From assembly GCA_902789555.1 (NCBI GenBank), contig CADAOF010000003.1, forward strand, positions 62,001-126,000: a stretch of DNA of 64,000 bases, given 5' to 3'. The number at the start of each line of letters is the position of its first letter. Position 1 is the first letter of the stretch. Positions 21,498-29,419 of this stretch are shown piece by piece. The DNA is from an uncultured Lachnospiraceae bacterium (GTDB lineage: Bacteria > Bacillota > Clostridia > Lachnospirales > Lachnospiraceae). The notes below the pieces were generated by a model. The model saw only the letters and a program-made list of their open reading frames with translations. It was not told the DNA's origin and ran no database searches. A program made the position numbers and the translations under genes.

Positions 21498-22139
21498 TCA
21501 GACGATCGTCAGAAGATCTTCCGGCTTCTGGATGATGTATTTTGCCCCTGCGCCTTCCAGTTCCTCCCGGCTGCCGTAGCCGTAGAGGACGCCGCAGCAG
21601 TCGATGCCGGCAAGACGGGCGCCGAGGACGTCATTGTCGCGGTCGCCGACCATCAGTACGCAGCTTCTGTCCGCCGCGCCGAGTTCCTTCAGCGCCAGTT
21701 CGATGATGTCATTCTTTTCGGAACGGCTCTCATCCAGGGTCGCACCGGCAACAAAGGAAAAATAATCTGCCCAGCCGAAGTGCTGCAGGATGTCTTCGGC
21801 CATGGAAGTCGGCTTTCCGGTCGCCGCAGCCAGGATCTTTCCGCGCGCCTTCAGGGTGCGGAGCGTCTCCTCCATGCCTTCGTAAGGGGTATTCATGTAG
21901 ATCGCGCCGGCCAGGTAATCCTCACGGTAATACGCGAGCGCCTGCGCCGCCTGCTCGCGGGTGAAACCGTAGAAGCGCATGTAGGCGGGGATCATCGGCG
22001 GACCGACGAAGCGCCGGAGCGCTTCCTCGCTTTCTCCGGTGATGCCGAATTTTGCCAGGGCGTAACGGACGGAATGCATGATCCCGGGACCGGAGTCCGA
22101 GAGCGTGCCGTCAAGGTCGAATAAGATGATGTCGTACAT
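21498..22139 (-). CDS. HAD-family hydrolase (phosphoglycolate phosphatase-like)
   Basis: The protein has 213 residues. HAD motif I FDLDGTLSDSG carries the nucleophile Asp. Motif II is likely AAATGKPT, motif III the Lys near KPTSM or EKND, and motif IV MVGDRDNDVLGA. The cap between residues 15 and 85 is of the C1 helical type, as in Gph. It could act on phosphoglycolate or other small phosphoesters. A GAGGAGG site precedes the start. Confidence 0.88.
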   Translation of the reverse strand: MYDIILFDLDGTLSDSGPGIMHSVRYALAKFGITGESEEALRRFVGPPMIPAYMRFYGFTREQAAQALAYYREDYLAGAIYMNTPYEGMEETLRTLKARGKILAAATGKPTSMAEDILQHFGWADYFSFVAGATLDESRSEKNDIIELALKELGAADRSCVLMVGDRDNDVLGARLAGIDCCGVLYGYGSREELEGAGAKYIIQKPEDLLTIV

Positions 22140-22270: not shown

Positions 22271-22299
22271 TTGACGGCGCCATGCGGCTAAATTAAAAT
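22271..22299 (+). promoter_or_regulatory. Promoter of the HD-RyR / SLOG-SLATT operon
   Basis: TTGACG (22271-22276) and TAAAAT (22294-22299) are 17 bases apart, about 90 bases upstream of the first gene. The rest of the 250-base gap between the divergent genes shows no further ORF. Confidence 0.7.
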
Positions 22300-22389
22300 G
22301 AAATCGCAGAACAGCCGTACAGCTGGATCGTACGGAAGAAAGACAAGGCGCGGATCCTGACGTTCAGGACCGGATGAGGAGACGGCATC

Positions 22390-24420
22390 ATGGCATATAC
22401 CGCATTGGAGCAGATGAGAAAAGTGAACAGGCAGCGTTTCGGCTCGGACGTCGGACCGTTTGAACCGGCTCTTTACGGTGCGGAAAGAACGGGGAATGAC
22501 CTCAGATCCGCAGCGCTGCGTTTTCTGCATGAGCGCTGCGAAGGCCTCCGCTTCTCGCCTGAAAAGACCGAGGAGGAAGTGCGGACCGGACGGTATCTGG
22601 GCACGGCGGCTTCACGGAATCAGATCCCGTATGACATGCAGATGGACATCGACCGCCTCTGCCTCGAGCGCGAATTGGAAAACTTCATCGCATCCGGTGT
22701 CGCAGAGGACGCATACACCGTCTATTACAGCTTTTTACGGATGTTCGTGGGGACCTACGGGCAGTCAAGCAAGATGATCGAACTGCTGTCCGAATTTGAA
22801 TCGAACGCGAGCACGCTCCTGATGAAGCACCGTGACCATTATTCGCACTCGGTCTACGTGTTTGCGCTCGGCCTTGCGATCTACGAAACGAACGAGAAGT
22901 TCCGCAGGACCTTCCAGACTTTCTACGGCTTTGTGCCCGGACAGGACGAACATCCTGCCGCGGCATTCTTTCTCGAGTTCTGGGGACTGACGGCGCTCTT
23001 CCATGACATCGGCTATCCGTTTGAGATCCCGTTTGAACAGGTGATGGCTTATTTTGAAGTCGACCGGAGACAGCGCGGCAAGGGCAGCCTGTTCCTGGCT
23101 TATCATGATCTCGACTGCCTCTCCGGCATGAGCAGCAAAGCGAAAGAGCACTTTGCGGATCTGTTCGGCCGTCCGTTCGATTCCGTCGAAGCACTGCTGG
23201 CTTACGGGATCGAAAAGCGCCTCGGCGCAGCATACGGCGTGTCGGAGGAAGACCTCTTCGATACGATCCGCAGCAAGCCGACCGAACCGGACCGTTTCGG
23301 CTATTTCATGGATCACGCCTATTTCAGCGCTGCGAGACTTTATCAGGAACTTGCCGAGGTGCTCGGCGAGGAACGGATCACCGAAGCACACGTCGATGCG
23401 CTGACGGCGATCATGCTGCACAACAGCATGTTCAAGTTTTCGATCGCCTTTTACAAGGACAATGAGAAGCGCAGGGCGCCGCTGAAGGCGGAACTGCACC
23501 CGTTAGCCTACCTTCTGATGCTCTGCGACGAACTGCAGTGCTGGGACCGCACCGCCTACGGCAGAAACTCACGGATCGAGCTGCATCCGATGGATGCGGA
23601 GTTCGATTTCGGCCGGGGCATGATCCACGTGCTGTACTGCTTTGATGCCGAGGAATCCGAAAAAATCGGCCGGTACGAAGCGGATTACCGCGCCTGGGAA
23701 CAGAACGGTTCCGCCGGCGAGCCGCCCCGGCTGAAGGCATACAGTGACATGGCGGAGAAGGAGCAGCGCTTTCGCACGGATATTGAAAAGATCGTCGATC
23801 TTTCCGGCTATCCGCTGTTCGTCACGACGTTCATGCGAACTGCAGACAGAAAGAGCAAGCACACGTATCTTTCCGGCAGCAGCTTCCTGCACATGTACGA
23901 TTTTGCCGTGGCGATCAACGGACGCTACCGGTACGAAGGGAGAGAAGAGGAGATCCCGGCGGAACAGCTCGAGCGCGATTTCGATGAGATGTCCCTGGAA
24001 TATCAGCTGAGCAACATCAATCAGGTCAAGAGCTTTGCGAAATATCTGAACGCGATCGGCTGTTTCTATACGGACCGTCCCGTCGACTTTGAGATGCTCC
24101 GCGCGTTTACCGAAGAGCAGTGCGCCGTGTTTGCACCGATGGAACATGCCCGCTGGCTCCGTGCGCACCGCGCAATGGGCTGGACGGCGGGAGATCTTTA
24201 CGAGACCGCCGCCGCGGATGAAGGGACGGACCGCTCCGCGCTGCGGGAACAGATGCGCCAGCACAAACTGTGCATAAACGGCGATTTCGGCGAACTCGAG
24301 ATCGCGCGGCATTATCTGCAGCTGTCCGAAGCGGACCAGGGCAAGGACTGGAAGCCGTTCAACTCCATGCTGAAGCTGATCCGCAAGTTCGACGGACTGC
24401 GGATCTATAAACTTGACTGA
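22390..24420 (+). CDS. HD phosphohydrolase with C-terminal RyR-like domain
   Basis: The protein has 676 residues and is soluble. A metal-dependent HD domain is suggested by H150/H153 (KHRDHYSH), the H205-D206 pair in ALFHDIGYPFE, H309, H344 (AIMLHN) and D380 (LMLCDELQCWDR). HD enzymes cleave phosphoester bonds, often of nucleotides. The last 95 residues or so resemble a RyR domain: MEHARWLRAHRAMGWTAGD, then an acidic spacer and DWKPFNSMLKLIRKFDGL. RyR domains are thought to bind ligands in bacterial conflict systems. It is followed after 13 bases by the SLOG-SLATT gene. The domain assignment is from recalled patterns; the exact substrate is unknown. Confidence 0.72.
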   Translation: MAYTALEQMRKVNRQRFGSDVGPFEPALYGAERTGNDLRSAALRFLHERCEGLRFSPEKTEEEVRTGRYLGTAASRNQIPYDMQMDIDRLCLERELENFIASGVAEDAYTVYYSFLRMFVGTYGQSSKMIELLSEFESNASTLLMKHRDHYSHSVYVFALGLAIYETNEKFRRTFQTFYGFVPGQDEHPAAAFFLEFWGLTALFHDIGYPFEIPFEQVMAYFEVDRRQRGKGSLFLAYHDLDCLSGMSSKAKEHFADLFGRPFDSVEALLAYGIEKRLGAAYGVSEEDLFDTIRSKPTEPDRFGYFMDHAYFSAARLYQELAEVLGEERITEAHVDALTAIMLHNSMFKFSIAFYKDNEKRRAPLKAELHPLAYLLMLCDELQCWDRTAYGRNSRIELHPMDAEFDFGRGMIHVLYCFDAEESEKIGRYEADYRAWEQNGSAGEPPRLKAYSDMAEKEQRFRTDIEKIVDLSGYPLFVTTFMRTADRKSKHTYLSGSSFLHMYDFAVAINGRYRYEGREEEIPAEQLERDFDEMSLEYQLSNINQVKSFAKYLNAIGCFYTDRPVDFEMLRAFTEEQCAVFAPMEHARWLRAHRAMGWTAGDLYETAAADEGTDRSALREQMRQHKLCINGDFGELEIARHYLQLSEADQGKDWKPFNSMLKLIRKFDGLRIYKLD

Positions 24421-24433
24421 AAAAGGAGACGGT

Positions 24434-26029
24434 ATGGCACTGCAGGATACAGTCCCGATCGTCGTCGGCGTGACGGGGCATCGGGACATTCGGACCGAAG
24501 ACCGTGAAAGGCTCGGCCGCGCCGTTGAGAAACAACTTCTGGCACTCCGCGAAAAATGCCCGCACTCCCGGATCGTCATGCTGAACAGTCTTGCAGCAGG
24601 CGCAGATCAGCTTTGCGCGGAAGCCGCGCGCAAACTCTCGATCCCGCTGATCGCTGTGCTGCCGATGGCCCGGGAGGAGTACGAGAAAGTCTTTTCCGGG
24701 GAGCAACTGCTGCATTTCCGGACCCTCTGCAGCGCGGCAGAAGAGTGCTTTACCGCACCCGAAACGGAGGAGGCACCGCCTTCGCCGGACAGGGATTTTA
24801 CCTACCGACAGGCCGGCATCTACATCGCGTCGCATGCGCACGTGCTGCTGGCACTATGGGACGGAAAAGAATCGGCCCCGTCGCACTGCGGTACCGCCGA
24901 AACCGTACGCTTTGCTCTGGAGGGCGCGTACGAACCGAAAAATGCGATCCCGCTGGGAGGAAGCTGTCCCGTATGGCACGTTCAGACACCGCGAACGGGT
25001 ACGGAAGATGCTGCGGACGCGGGGATGCTGCGCTTCCTCGGCGACGAAGCAGCCTTTGAAGAAGTTCTTGCCCGTACCGATGAATTCAACAAACTTTCCG
25101 CAGAGGAAGCTCTGCCGCAGAACGGTCTGCTGCCTGCAGAGCGTGAAGCGGACGAATGCCTGGACAGAACGGAGGCGCTGTACGCAAAAGCGGATGCTCT
25201 GAGCATCCGCTTTGCGGGACAGTACCGGAGGCTGCTGGCTGCGCTCGCCGTGGTCAGCACGGTCATTACGGTCGCGTTCCTGCTCTACGATGAGGCGGAA
25301 CTGCACTGGATGATCCTTGTCTGCGGGGCCATGCTGCTCCTTGCCTTTTTCCTGCGGCGGCGCGAAATGCGCGCTGCCTCGCACCGGCGCTATCTGGAAT
25401 ACCGGATGCTCGCGGAGGGACTGCGGGTACAGGCACTGCTGCGCTATGCCGGAAGCAGCGGATCCGCTGCGGAGATCCTTCCGTGGTCAGCAAAGACCGA
25501 GGCCGGATGGGTCGTCTGTGCGCTGAAGACCTGCGTCATCGCCGGCAGGCCAGCAGCCGTTCACCGCATACGGGACGTATGGGTGGATCAGCAGCGAAGG
25601 TACCATCAGGAGGTGATTGGACGCTCGAGGCGCGCGTACGAAGGGAGCGAACGGATCGTCGGCATTGCCCTGCGGATCAGCATTCTGCTTTATCTGGCCG
25701 TACTGGCCTTTGAGATCATCTGGGGTGGCCTGCTGCCGTTTTCCCGCAGCATATCCGCAGCGGAAACGTACCGTACGCTGTCCAAACTCATCCTCGGCAG
25801 CATATCGGCGGGGGCGCTGTTCATTTCAAATTATTACGGCCGCCTCTCGCTTTCGCGGGTGACATCCGACCATGCCAAAATGGAACGCTTTTACCGGGAA
25901 GCCCTGGAGCGCATCGACCGTTACGGCGAGACCCCCGCTCTGCTTCTTCTCATCGCCCGCGAGGAACTGATCGAGAACGGAAACTGGTGTTCCTACCAGC
26001 GCGACAATACGGCTGACTTCAATCTGTAA
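24434..26029 (+). CDS. SLOG sensor fused to SLATT-like transmembrane effector
   Basis: The protein has 531 residues from the ATG at 24434, with AAGGAG upstream. Residues about 5-210 form a Rossmann-like SLOG domain with VGVTGHRDI at 11-19, LAAGADQL at 53-60 and GTAETVRFAL near 153. A helical linker beginning ALYAKADALSIRFAGQYRR leads to a close pair of membrane helices at about 260-305. A second helix pair lies near 420-482, each followed by a charged helix. This matches the SLOG plus SLATT layout proposed as a nucleotide-gated membrane effector. The second 2TM block makes it longer than a simple SLATT protein. Confidence 0.72.
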   Translation: MALQDTVPIVVGVTGHRDIRTEDRERLGRAVEKQLLALREKCPHSRIVMLNSLAAGADQLCAEAARKLSIPLIAVLPMAREEYEKVFSGEQLLHFRTLCSAAEECFTAPETEEAPPSPDRDFTYRQAGIYIASHAHVLLALWDGKESAPSHCGTAETVRFALEGAYEPKNAIPLGGSCPVWHVQTPRTGTEDAADAGMLRFLGDEAAFEEVLARTDEFNKLSAEEALPQNGLLPAEREADECLDRTEALYAKADALSIRFAGQYRRLLAALAVVSTVITVAFLLYDEAELHWMILVCGAMLLLAFFLRRREMRAASHRRYLEYRMLAEGLRVQALLRYAGSSGSAAEILPWSAKTEAGWVVCALKTCVIAGRPAAVHRIRDVWVDQQRRYHQEVIGRSRRAYEGSERIVGIALRISILLYLAVLAFEIIWGGLLPFSRSISAAETYRTLSKLILGSISAGALFISNYYGRLSLSRVTSDHAKMERFYREALERIDRYGETPALLLLIAREELIENGNWCSYQRDNTADFNL

Positions 26030-26049
26030 CGTTTTGAGATAAATACGAT

Positions 26050-26086
26050 AAAAGCCCCGTCCGCAGCCGCGGACGGGGCTTTTTCG
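26050..26086. terminator. Bidirectional terminator between the SLOG-SLATT and TIR genes
   Basis: A 15-base GC-rich stem (AAAGCCCCGTCCGC and its complement) surrounds a tiny loop near 26066. It is preceded by A residues and followed by TTTTT, serving both convergent genes. Confidence 0.9.
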
Positions 26087-26097
26087 TGCCGAAGAGA

Positions 26098-28842
26098 TCA
26101 TTTCGTGCCCGCGGCGAACGTGCGCAGGCGTTCGACCAGCACGTCTTCATCGGCAAACAGATCCCCGATCACATAAGAACCTGATTCCGTCCTGCCGACT
26201 GCATATGCGCCGTCCTCGGAGAACGTTGCTTCCGCGAACGGTTCATCGGCGTGCATGGAGAAGAGCAGCCGGCAGCCGTCGTTCAGGTCGAAGACGTCGA
26301 TCTTCGTCTTTCCTTCGCACAGCGCTGTCATCAGGGAGGCGTCCGTATTGAAGGAGAAGGCCGAATACTGTGTTTCGTTCTTCCAGATCTTCTCCACGGA
26401 CTTCGTCTTCAAGTTGTAGACCATCATGCGGGTGTCCATGTCGATTGCGATCAGGCGGTCTTCCGTGATCGCCAGGGTGTTGATGTAGGTGTACAGCTGG
26501 CCGACCGTATCTCGGACCTGGCCGTCTCCCTGTGTATCGAACAGTTCGACGGTACCGTCCGGATACGCGATCGCGGCGGTGCTTCCGTCCCGTGAGAAAG
26601 CCATTTTGGACGGATAGTCCTTATAGAAATTTGTTTGCTTAAACGTCGGTGAGAGTTCGTGCAGACCGAAGAGCGTAACGCATTCGACGGCCCGCTGCGC
26701 CTGGTACGGTTCCATGAGCGTTCCGGAAAAACTGTCTGCTGCCGTAACTGACGAGAGCTTCGGCAGGCTGTAGAAATTGATTACGCCGTCGTAGCGGGAG
26801 CCAAGCACCATGCTGTCCATCGGAACGATGCCGTTGTAATTCGTCCCCTCCGCCGATTCGATGAGTTCGGGGGCCCAGGTATCGGTGTTGATGATGAACA
26901 TCGCTTCGTTGGTCATAAGAAGGTGCTTTCCGTCGGAAGAGAAGGAGATCGACGGCGTATAGCTGGTATCGTCGATGTTCGCCGTCAGGATCCCGGCATT
27001 CGTTCTGGCATCGGAAATGTACAGCTTCGGACCGAAGGTGTAAGCAAAAAGCGTGGAGTCCGGTGAGTAGACCGGCTGCGACGGCATGGCCCAGGATTCT
27101 TCGCTTTCGACATAATCGATGAAGAGCATGTTTCCGGTATCCACGTCCCATCCGGCAATGACATGGTACATTGAGAGGAGGCACAGGGTCTTTCCGTCCG
27201 GCGAGAGGGCCCACTTATCCGCAAAAGTCCCCGGCATCTTGCAGCTCGGATCGTTCGGAAGCGCCGGAATGAACAGGCGTTTCCCCTCGCCGTCCAGTAC
27301 GATGACAGCGATCTCGCCGGCCTTGCCGGTGAGGACGATGCGGTCCCGGTCCGGCGAGACCAGCATCTGCATGGCGTAACCGTCTGCGACATTCGTGAAG
27401 ATCTTATCCAGAGGCGCATCCATCAGACGTGAGAGGAAATTGTTGTTCGGATCGTAATCGTCCATCTGCGTCCCGACGGTATAGAACAACTTTTCGCTGC
27501 CGTCATCGCCGACCAGCAGAAACTTATCCGCATCCTGCAGAAGGAGCGTCCCGCTGTCTTTCCAGAAACAGACGTTGAGGATCTCGTAGGGCTGATTTGC
27601 TTTACTCGTGTAGCGGAAGGCTTCCGATCCGTCTTCCGTGTTCCAGACCTGGACGAAGCGGCCGTAATCGCAGTCAGCCAGAAAACGAGTTCCGTCTTCG
27701 GAGAAGTGCGGATACATCATGATCGCGTTGTCCGCGGATACGGTATACAGGATCTCGTTGTTCGCCAGATCGACCATGGCGATCGAGTTATTGTTGACCA
27801 CACCGACCGCCCGCGTGCCGTCCGGCGACGGCTCAATGTAAAGCAGCTGCATGTTCTGGTTGTTGAAACTGGAGACGACCGAGAACGGTTCGATGTACAT
27901 CGTGCGGCGCATCACGGCCAGAAGCTCGTCGCGGCGCATTCCCTCGTTCTGCTCGCTGATGTCCAGGGCGTCCGCGAGGATCCTTGCTGCTTCGCGCCTT
28001 TCTCCCTTGTCGAGGGCAGCCCGTGCACGCTCCATCCGTTCACCGAGATCGTTCCGGACCGCGTTTTTGCGTTCCTCTTCAGCACGGCGCTGTTCCTCCT
28101 CGGCACGGCGCTGTTCCTCTGCGGCGCGGCTTTGTTCCTCTTCAGCCAGCCTTGAATGCTCTGCCGCGATGCTTGCCTGCGCCTCCGCCTCGCGCTTCAG
28201 TGCTTCATTTCGCCTGTGATTAACGATCAGGAAAATAGTAAGTGCCGCAGCCGCGGCAAGGACCGCCGAACTGACAGCCGCGGTGATGCGGATCTTTCGC
28301 TGTCTTGCACGGCGCTTCAGATCGTCGAAGCCCAGCCCGAGCATCGGTGCGAGAATGCGCAGTTTTTCATTTTTCAGCTTAGCGAGACTCTTTGCGGATG
28401 TTTCGGCGCGCACGTCGCCGGCCAGGGGCTCGAGTTCTTCTTTTGTCCCGTCGGCGTTTTCGATAAAACGGATCATTTCCGGGAAACTGTCCTGAGGTTC
28501 ACCCTCGACAAGCACGGTCAGGACGCGGTCGTGCCCCTTGTGTTCGATGAAATACTCAAGTTCCCTAAGGCACCATTTGCTTTCGAGATAGCGCGGCGAA
28601 CAGATCGCGATGAACCATTCGCTCCGGTCCAGTGCTGCCTCGATGTCCGCCCCGAGATCCGATGACAAAGGCAGTTCTTCCTGGTCGCGGAATACCTTGC
28701 CCATGCGCTTTTTGCCTGTTTGTTTGCGGACGCTTCCGGGGATCCCGTAGGTCTCGATCGCCGTATGCAGTGCCTTCGCGATCTCCTGGTCAGGCGACTG
28801 GTGCCGGTAACTGATAAACGCGCAGTAGGATCGCTGTTCCAT
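26098..28842 (-). CDS. TIR-transmembrane-coiled coil-beta propeller protein
   Basis: The protein has 914 residues. The TIR domain covers about 1-155: YCAFISYRHQS opens it, DRSEWFIAICSPRYLESKWC follows, and E94 in WCLRELEYF is at the position of the catalytic glutamate of NAD-cleaving TIRs. A membrane helix at about 186-208 (AVLAAAAALTIFLIV) is followed by a Glu/Arg/Ala-rich coiled coil to about 265. A WD40-like propeller then fills about 320-890, with repeats such as PSPDGTRAVGV, FSEDGTRFLA, LSPDGKTLCL and FSRDGSTAAIA. TIRs act as NADases or nucleotide-signal makers in immunity. It converges on the SLOG-SLATT operon. Confidence 0.85.
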   Translation of the reverse strand: MEQRSYCAFISYRHQSPDQEIAKALHTAIETYGIPGSVRKQTGKKRMGKVFRDQEELPLSSDLGADIEAALDRSEWFIAICSPRYLESKWCLRELEYFIEHKGHDRVLTVLVEGEPQDSFPEMIRFIENADGTKEELEPLAGDVRAETSAKSLAKLKNEKLRILAPMLGLGFDDLKRRARQRKIRITAAVSSAVLAAAAALTIFLIVNHRRNEALKREAEAQASIAAEHSRLAEEEQSRAAEEQRRAEEEQRRAEEERKNAVRNDLGERMERARAALDKGERREAARILADALDISEQNEGMRRDELLAVMRRTMYIEPFSVVSSFNNQNMQLLYIEPSPDGTRAVGVVNNNSIAMVDLANNEILYTVSADNAIMMYPHFSEDGTRFLADCDYGRFVQVWNTEDGSEAFRYTSKANQPYEILNVCFWKDSGTLLLQDADKFLLVGDDGSEKLFYTVGTQMDDYDPNNNFLSRLMDAPLDKIFTNVADGYAMQMLVSPDRDRIVLTGKAGEIAVIVLDGEGKRLFIPALPNDPSCKMPGTFADKWALSPDGKTLCLLSMYHVIAGWDVDTGNMLFIDYVESEESWAMPSQPVYSPDSTLFAYTFGPKLYISDARTNAGILTANIDDTSYTPSISFSSDGKHLLMTNEAMFIINTDTWAPELIESAEGTNYNGIVPMDSMVLGSRYDGVINFYSLPKLSSVTAADSFSGTLMEPYQAQRAVECVTLFGLHELSPTFKQTNFYKDYPSKMAFSRDGSTAAIAYPDGTVELFDTQGDGQVRDTVGQLYTYINTLAITEDRLIAIDMDTRMMVYNLKTKSVEKIWKNETQYSAFSFNTDASLMTALCEGKTKIDVFDLNDGCRLLFSMHADEPFAEATFSEDGAYAVGRTESGSYVIGDLFADEDVLVERLRTFAAGTK

Positions 28843-28864
28843 ATTGATCTGCCTCCTTGTCGTT

Positions 28865-28890
28865 GTTAAAATAATGTTATCATAGATTTT
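28865..28890 (-). promoter_or_regulatory. Likely promoter of the TIR gene
   Basis: On the minus strand a TATGAT box is followed by AACATTATTTTAAC and an AAGGAGG site. TTGGTG lies about 16 bases further upstream, a weak -35. The region is AT-rich compared with its surroundings. Confidence 0.45.
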
Positions 28891-28966: not shown

Positions 28967-29419
28967 TCAGCTCAGCAGTTTGAACTTTCCGATGACGGGC
29001 AGTTCCTGTGCCTTGCCGTTCACGACGTTGACGATGCCGATGATCGCCAGGGCGAACACGACGACGCCGCAAAGCCAGCCGATCACGGGGATCCAGGAGA
29101 TGGCTGCAACGATAAGGCCGAGGATCAGGAGGGTCAGGCCCTGGTTCAGGTGATACTTCACGAAGGGGGATTCCTTTGCCGTAAGGAAGGGGATCAGCCA
29201 GAGAATGCCCAGATAGCAGAGGACAGCCATCACCTTGTTGTTATTGATGTCGGCTGCGCTGTAATTCGCCGTGGTATCGGGCGTATCGGCCAGTTTCTTC
29301 AGATCTTCGGTAAAGTCGGTCTTGGAAGCGGATTTTTCTCCGTCGATCCTGGCACCGCAGTTCGGGCAGAACGTCGTGCCGTCTTCCAGTTTGGTTCCGC
29401 ATTTGGGACAGAATGCCAT
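28967..29419 (-). CDS. Zinc-ribbon membrane protein (DUF4870/Tic20-like)
   Basis: The protein has 150 residues. An N-terminal zinc ribbon has paired CxxC motifs (FCPKCGTKL and FCPNCGARI). After a polar linker, KVMAVLCYLGILWLIPFL and then KYHLNQGLTLLILGL mark a DUF4870-type membrane domain with three to four helices. Such proteins are common in gut Clostridia and have no assigned function. It follows a second zinc-ribbon membrane gene after 25 bases. Confidence 0.85.
   Translation of the reverse strand: MAFCPKCGTKLEDGTTFCPNCGARIDGEKSASKTDFTEDLKKLADTPDTTANYSAADINNNKVMAVLCYLGILWLIPFLTAKESPFVKYHLNQGLTLLILGLIVAAISWIPVIGWLCGVVVFALAIIGIVNVVNGKAQELPVIGKFKLLS

Follow-up and report, generated by a model that had tools for sequence, protein, structure and literature searches.

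A cassette of three adjacent genes, encoding an HD-RyR protein (P0001), a SLOG-SLATT-like membrane protein (P0002) and a TIR-propeller protein (P0003), was analysed in a 64,000-nucleotide stretch of DNA from an uncultured Lachnospiraceae bacterium, a relative of rumen species. This stretch, hereafter the window, covers positions 62001-126000 of contig C3 in a genome of 2.26 Mb, and the cassette spans positions 22390-28842 within it. Our preferred explanation, held with a probability of roughly 55%, is that these three genes form a Thoeris-like cassette for nucleotide signalling, gained and lost as a whole or in parts. Judged from sequence, it looks like an undescribed virus-defence circuit. 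The original prediction had seen three domain-rich genes side by side here, and the long open reading frames (ORFs) together with the domain calls bear this out (Table 1).

Linkage of HD-RyR with TIR and SLATT genes

One scan of a contig collection gave 373 relatives of the HD-RyR protein, and the best 80 were kept; these records come from uncultured Clostridia, Erysipelotrichia and their relatives, many of them named after ruminant gut samples. One duplicate and four records without an HD-RyR gene model were dropped, and the remaining 75, five of seven further stretches and the window made up a linkage set of 81 loci. Loci L041, L042, L051 and L057 are contigs of the congeneric genomes G545, G540, G541 and G550, and since they are identical to these they add no further evidence.

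A TIR gene or a TIR-like leucine-rich-repeat (LRR) gene was present in 59 of the 81 loci (58 by the TIR profile alone), and a SLATT gene in 29. Of the 81 loci, 42 had the TIR or TIR-like gene as a direct neighbour of HD-RyR and 21 had a SLATT gene there; the numbers expected for a gene picked at random from these loci are 10.2 and 4.9, respectively. Eight of the 42 TIR adjacencies come solely from cluster c3, a group of LRR proteins of 1000-1290 amino acids (aa) that is called TIR-like by resemblance; Pfam gave no TIR in the one member scanned, and the TIR profile matched 2 of 25. Adjacent genes shared the strand of HD-RyR in 39 of 42 cases for TIR and 20 of 21 for SLATT, mostly with short gaps, and in 18 loci the SLATT gene lay directly downstream on the same strand (gap under 100 bp in 17). 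The TIR share of genes fell from 0.199 within 2 kb of HD-RyR to 0.006 at 8-10 kb. Forty-four loci had 7.5 kb or more of flanking sequence on each side. Of these 44, 37 carried TIR, 20 SLATT, 17 both and four neither, and in 20 of them a TIR gene accompanied HD-RyR with no membrane sensor detected nearby. In this scoring L110 was counted as having neither although phmmer gave a short P0003 match, and the "membrane RyR" of L040, a 93-aa ORF, was left uncounted.

The same genes recur in other arrangements. TIR-propeller, HD-RyR and SLOG-SLATT genes form a single run in this order in L118, and the TIR-propeller gene stands directly upstream of HD-RyR in L054, L056, L058 and L059. In L204 and L205, which stem from one genus of a different family and represent two of its species, the TIR-propeller gene abuts or overlaps the SLOG-SLATT gene (identities 28-35%); neither genome gave an HD-RyR match, G312, one of the two, matching weakly to RyR only. 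L189 carries the same pair on a contig that starts at the TIR gene, and its genome, which is 83% complete, gave no HD-RyR match. These recurring pairs agree with the original prediction that the TIR protein is partnered with a SLOG-membrane protein. HD-RyR is followed by a TIR gene in L152, L153, L206 and L207. The third gene of L206 and L035 encodes a transmembrane (TM)-Rossmann-RyR protein, and short SLATT proteins (310-327 aa, without the TGHR motif) directly follow HD-RyR in L066, L096 and L100.

The TIR partner is exchangeable, being a TIR-propeller protein, a TIR-TM-LRR set or a TIR-TIR-TPR protein, and the membrane partner varies between SLOG-SLATT, SLATT without SLOG and the TM-Rossmann-RyR protein. 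Each LRR set has three genes. The first encodes a short protein of about 278 aa whose TIR is degenerate, the second a TIR-TM-LRR protein of about 388 aa and the third a long TM-LRR protein of 1000-1290 aa; in this order they recur beside HD-RyR in L034, L044, L063, L083 and other loci. A protein kinase-TM-LRR gene (cluster c7, about 572 aa) with a small upstream gene was observed near or upstream of HD-RyR in L063, L073, L079 and L115; the one kinase scanned matched Pkinase at 3.4e-27, and its layout resembles that of a receptor kinase. DUF4062-type proteins were also observed near HD-RyR, in L040 (5781-9524, by Pfam) and in L113 (a cluster c63 gene, by similarity). DUF4062, a feature of Swarozyc, had no match in the trio of the window and among the searched loci was found in these two only. 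It has been described as a TIR-like NADase (PMC13174449), and is perhaps a further exchangeable TIR-type partner.

Variable presence between genomes

HD-RyR was found in 5 of 16 congeneric genomes. In G536 the site is empty, with the two border genes, for a HAD phosphatase and a zinc-ribbon protein, 51 bp apart and nothing between them. G540 carries the pair only, G545, G550 and the window's own genome (G000) carry the trio at the site, and in G541 the neighbour of HD-RyR is a different TIR gene. The variable presence between close relatives that had been put forward as a check is seen here.

A BlaI/BlaR-like regulator pair (named by resemblance) and small genes were observed in G545 between the zinc-ribbon and TIR-propeller genes (L192, 4088-7886); because extra genes have been inserted there, the site behaves as an insertion hotspot. 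Terminal repeats flanking the cassette, the mark of a transposable unit, were searched for and none were found. Plasmid carriage was rejected, as a plasmid search gave no match. For viral carriage, which was likewise rejected, two records matched: an 8.3-kb human-gut sequence that has no annotation and is labelled phage (37.7%), and a contig in IMG/VR (61%).

Across 150 genomes of the family, HD-RyR was found in seven, P0002 in five (two of these being short SLOG-only matches) and P0003 in 18, the P0003 matches outside the window's own gene covering mainly the N-terminal part. P0002 was found in 4 of 391 genomes of the class, once as a weak short match, and the near HD-RyR profile matched 7 of 392 genomes of the order, four of them strongly.

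Domains of the three proteins

In the HD region of P0001, H150, H205, D206, D308, H309, H344, H370 and D380 were conserved in 81 of 81 family sequences and H153 in 80. Such invariant ligands are expected for an active HD metal site, and the centre is apparently intact. Against the HD call, Pfam HD was matched by only 1 of 40 near-family members. The RyR tail keeps H586 and W589 in all 81 near-family sequences, H625 in 78 and D653 in 80. The RyR family PF02026 was matched by 15 of 40 near-family alignment members (best 2e-5) and by 3 of 6 members of a more diverse set (best 1.4e-17). The profile of the diverse set reached ryanodine-receptor chains in the PDB at 4e-24, and hhalign of near-family tails with canonical RyR tails gave 98.4%. 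Against the RyR call, the near-relative profile alone reached RyR3 in the PDB at just an expectation value (E) of 0.09. The RyR domain of P0001 is supported at the level of family profiles.

The closest characterised RyR protein found is the phage protein RyDEP, whose residues H75, W78, H100 and D117 bind 2'/3'cADPR (cyclic ADP-ribose), isomers that TIR proteins make, with H75/D117 as the catalytic dyad (PMC13232231, preprint, May 2026). The P0001 residues that match these ligand residues (H, W, H and D) are nearly unchanged across the near family, each being kept in 78-81 of 81 sequences; the matching is by motif, through the intermediate tails of L039, L150 and L206 and without structural superposition, and the near family has insertions between the residues. 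RyDEP degrades 2'/3'cADPR and its relatives sequester the signals; 6 of 8 RyDEP homologues tested bound signals, those other than RyDEP without degradation (PMC13232231). Because these homologues bound signals without degrading them, RyDEP-type residues foretell binding better than cleavage.

Other RyR-bearing genes were observed as well. L038 (G123:C17, 8474-9205) holds an HD-RyR copy that is broken, with a stop codon in frame, close to the end of its contig. In other genomes of the class, short ORFs of about 97-129 aa match the RyR part of the profile (L127, L129, L131, L140, L141, L143, L144 and L149); these are possibly stand-alone RyR proteins. The window's own genome contains, beyond the window, two adjacent genes in L150 (G000:C3, about 136.8-140.3 kb), one with a RyR-like tail and one with a RyR domain. 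The RyR domain of the K+ channel encoded there scored 2.1e-7, above the cut-off, and keeps all four residues H, W, H and D at the RyDEP spacing (H, +3, +25, +42).

The N-terminal part of P0002 has a SLOG fold of the YpsA type, as judged from its AlphaFold model, whose top PDB match in Foldseek was Bacillus subtilis YpsA (2nx2, E 6.2e-5, probability 1.00). YpsA was the sole match under E 0.001, ShosA and DprA following at E 0.003-0.03 with probability 1.00. P0002 by itself matched PF10686 (YAcAr SLOG) at E 0.0032, under the Pfam cut-off, and 10 of 20 alignment members matched it (best 7.1e-6). The membrane part has predicted helices at 241-288, 293-338 (one break), 380-429 and 443-497 (one break). 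It matched PF14015/DUF4231 at E 9.7e-5, slightly short of the cut-off, as did 13 of 20 alignment members, and NCBIfam SLATT_3 at E 0.017, under its cut-off; the support for its SLATT identity is moderate. The predicted SLOG-SLATT call is supported for SLOG, by family profiles and fold, and to a moderate degree for SLATT. The model of ShosA, which PADLOC lists as a defence protein, matched 5 of 20 SLOG-SLATT alignment members (best 8.6e-4).

The TIR domain, the WD40-like propeller and the one predicted TM helix of P0003 agree with the TIR membrane protein with a propeller that was first described here. All 12 distinct members of the TIR-propeller family keep Glu94, which we take to be at the catalytic position of TIR NADases. 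When the TIR domains aligned from the loci were taken together, 70 of 92 rows had Glu at this position; for cluster c2, many short members of which look degenerate, the figure was 29 of 48. Matches of P0003 to ThsB models were weak (Pfam E 0.14, PADLOC E 0.0015), and the PADLOC candidate-defence model PDC-S66 matched part of its TIR region at 6.2e-6. A TM helix was detected in 10 of the 12 family members, and in 10 of 10 its N-terminal side was richer in Lys and Arg. The same excess before the first TM helix was seen in 25 of 38 c2 TIR proteins, 19 of 22 TIR-like LRR proteins and 6 of 6 kinase-LRR proteins with a TM helix. Estimated by this simple count around the first helix rather than by a topology predictor, the excess suggests that the TIR side is cytosolic and the sensor part outside the cell. 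The propeller is the presumed sensor.

Layout and borders

P0002 starts with ATG preceded by AAGGAG, 13 bp past the P0001 stop. This short gap, together with a gene order that relatives share, suggests that P0001 and P0002 lie on a common transcript. The shared promoter predicted for the two genes did not stand: the site at 22271 is at chance level, with three promoter-like sites in the region against 2.8 expected. The predicted terminator between the convergent genes P0002 and P0003 is matched by a perfect 15-bp inverted repeat. Among the neighbouring genes, PADLOC gave generic ATPase matches on an ABC-F gene and the candidate model PDC-S07 on a NUDIX-like gene.

Table 1. Positions of the cassette genes, their domains and related features (positions in the window, or in L150 where stated)
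Feature	Position	Strand	Basis
P0001, HD-RyR, 676 aa	22390-24420	+	long ORF; 373 relatives found; model mean pLDDT (predicted local distance difference test) 82.5
HD phosphohydrolase-like region of P0001, aa 146-390	22825-23559	+	H150, H153, H205-D206, D308-H309, H344, H370, D380 conserved
C-terminal RyR domain of P0001, aa 570-676	24097-24417	+	H586, W589, H625, D653; profile and hhalign support
P0002, SLOG-SLATT-like membrane protein, 531 aa	24434-26029	+	long ORF; model mean pLDDT 86.5
SLOG domain of P0002, about aa 8-200, motif GVTGHR	24455-25033	+	Foldseek YpsA; PF10686 in relatives
Two long helical membrane hairpins of P0002, aa 241-531, SLATT/DUF4231-like	25154-26026	+	PF14015 in relatives; model
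P0003, TIR-TM-WD40 propeller protein, 914 aa	26098-28842	-	long ORF; Pfam domains
TIR domain of P0003, aa 4-130, Glu94 in SKWCLRELE	28453-28833	-	PF13676 E 1e-14
Predicted single TM helix of P0003, aa 189-207	28222-28278	-	hydropathy and Lys + Arg count
WD40-like propeller region of P0003, about aa 310-905	26128-27915	-	Pfam beta-propeller models
Palindromic terminator between convergent P0002 and P0003	26050-26083	.	15-bp arms, 100% complementary; terminator scan: - strand
Left border, outside the cassette: HAD phosphatase gene	21498-22139	-	named by sequence resemblance, not family search
Right border, outside the cassette: zinc-ribbon gene	28967-29419	-	named by resemblance, not family search
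TM-Rossmann-like protein with RyR-like tail (EHLRW), no Pfam match	L150 6827-8704	.	window's own genome
K+ channel with C-terminal RyR domain	L150 8711-10279	.	Ion_trans_2 1.8e-14; TVGYG filter

Discussion

SLOG, SLATT, RyR and TIR conflict networks were reportedly described by Burroughs et al. in 2015, and the cassette shares their domain vocabulary and predicted nucleotide logic. Our search of the literature, which reached few subscription journals so that an earlier mention is possible, gave no paper on a bacterial HD-RyR with TIR.

The effectors of Thoeris are SIR2-SLOG and TM-macro proteins, and in the SIR2-SLOG protein ThsA the SLOG domain carries a 3'cADPR pocket (PMC11204291). The cassette resembles Thoeris in having TIR beside a protein with a nucleotide-binding domain, in the SLOG fold, and in a membrane domain as in the TM-macro type. 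It differs in that the effector would be SLOG with two membrane hairpins, that an extra HD-RyR gene is present and that the TIR is TM-anchored to a propeller. By PF13676 (1e-14) P0003 qualifies as the TIR gene of type I Thoeris. No SIR2 match was found among the Pfam hits of P0002 or of 20 alignment members, and no macro domain among those of the trio or the P0002 alignment members. As neither type of effector fits, we do not file the cassette as Thoeris, but it may work like Thoeris.

SLOG and SLATT have been predicted as ADP-ribose sensor and effector, with TIR + SLATT pairs in Firmicute phages (PMC9503650). These pairs share with the cassette a TIR adjoining a SLATT membrane protein, but the available text notes no SLOG fusion or HD-RyR with them and contains "RyR" 0 times. 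RyDEP is alike in its PF02026 domain with the matching H, W, H and D; it is a phage-encoded evasion protein, whereas HD-RyR is bacterial, carries RyR C-terminal to a large HD enzyme and lies beside TIR genes. The Clover dNTPase-NTase system (PMC12265719) likewise has a defence HD-domain enzyme under the control of a nucleotide ligand, but its partner is a nucleotidyltransferase rather than a TIR protein, and CloA has the HE dyad of dNTPases.

The NAD+ chemistry, the signal, the pore and immunity itself are what we infer from these features. The propeller of P0003 would sense a trigger, and TIR, with its conserved Glu, would convert NAD+ to a signal of the ADP-ribose type. In P0002, the SLOG domain would bind this signal and the membrane hairpins would open or disrupt the membrane, as the ThsA SLOG domain and the SLATT predictions suggest. 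HD-RyR would also bind the signal, through its RyR pocket, and couple binding to the HD metal centre. We give even odds to HD-RyR being a signal-responsive enzyme that acts as a second effector, and favour this over an off-switch because many loci have TIR and HD-RyR without a detected membrane partner.

Several observations weigh against a signalling cassette of this kind. The linkage set is biased to near relatives, as its 80 records are the best of 373. Neither TIR nor SLATT was found in L040, L050, L081 and L112, four of the 44 well-flanked loci (L040 has the DUF4062 protein), and HD-RyR occurs without a TIR gene in the stretch seen in L151 (20 kb) and L036 (12 kb), as well as on the short contigs L122, L197 and L155. 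TIR-propeller relatives are present in 13 of 16 congeneric genomes, eight of which lack HD-RyR, and in the window the TIR gene is convergent to the other two genes, outside their run. The expected co-occurrence of homologues is borne out in part: adjacency of TIR and SLATT far exceeds expectation, but HD-RyR and P0003 occur together in only 1 of 150 family genomes, the window's own. At the protein level, P0001 as a single sequence gave no Pfam RyR or HD match, and the HD-RyR call of the original prediction stands by family profiles for RyR and by invariant metal ligands for HD. Foldseek of the P0001 model gave no significant fold, with weak matches to PPX, the HD-GYP protein Bd1817 and PDE2A, and no PADLOC model matched P0001 (E up to 1) or 40 near-family members (E up to 0.01). 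At the third RyR position, five of the six short HD-RyR tails from distant relatives have Ser or Thr, and only L040 has His, with Asn replacing the expected Asp; because of this variation the full H, W, H, D set is a feature of the near family. SLOG is absent or degenerate in some SLATT partners. Finally, PADLOC yielded no convincing defence match for ten genes in the neighbourhood, a scan for prophage or defence genes that did not extend to the remainder of the window.

The strongest alternative, somewhat less probable than the effector role, is that HD-RyR is an off-switch, in line with the original prediction that it removes the signal. Leaked signal of the cADPR type would be caught, and perhaps cleaved, by RyR and its breakdown completed by HD, so that uninfected cells are protected. 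The degradation of 2'/3'cADPR by RyDEP and sequestration by its relatives (PMC13232231) speak for this role, as do the matched catalytic dyad residues H and D in the near family (81 and 80 of 81) and the 18 loci with HD-RyR directly upstream of a same-strand SLATT gene. However, TIR + SLOG-SLATT pairs without HD-RyR exist (L204, L205), and the 20 of 44 loci with TIR and HD-RyR but no detected membrane effector would leave little to switch off unless TIR kills. The other phage homologues tested, moreover, gave no signal degradation (PMC13232231).

We regard it as unlikely that two independent systems, HD-RyR + TIR and TIR-propeller + SLOG-SLATT, merely share one hotspot. Each pair does occur without the third gene, and G545 has extra genes inserted at the site, but HD-RyR and SLATT are adjacent with short gaps in many loci (the 17 noted above), and L118 unites all three genes in one run. 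Still less probable is a stress or NAD-metabolism signalling module that governs ion flux and nucleotide turnover and has no part in immunity. The RyR-bearing K+ channel of the same genome would suit such a module, as would the neighbouring genes without a convincing PADLOC match. Patchy presence, the empty site and the swapping of TIR modules argue against it, such traits being usual for conflict systems. A chance neighbourhood of three unrelated genes, to which the single coincidence among the family genomes might point, is rejected by the adjacency counts (42 against 10.2; 21 against 4.9), the TIR distance gradient and the rearranged recurrences.

A wider and more speculative reading, which we hold to be doubtful, extends the Thoeris-like cassette to a modular immune network. 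Bacterial RyR domains would here be host receptors for TIR-made cADPR-type signals, and the TIR proteins would be receptor-like, with a propeller or LRR sensor predicted outside the membrane and TIR inside. One signal might be read by SLOG or by RyR and passed to exchangeable outputs, among them the HD enzyme, the SLATT pore, the TM-Rossmann-RyR protein and the K+ channel of the same genome.

In summary, the cassette shows RyR in a bacterial protein, joined to an HD enzyme that is apparently intact and linked genetically to TIR genes. It provides a defined system for asking whether RyR domains act as receptors for immune signals. With SIR2-SLOG and TM-macro as the first two kinds of Thoeris-type effector, the SLOG-membrane protein would add a third. 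If the receptor reading is true, such a network would be a prokaryotic equivalent of the ryanodine receptors that cADPR regulates and of Toll-like receptors, and would raise the further question of whether cADPR sensing by the RyR calcium channels of animals has a bacterial root.

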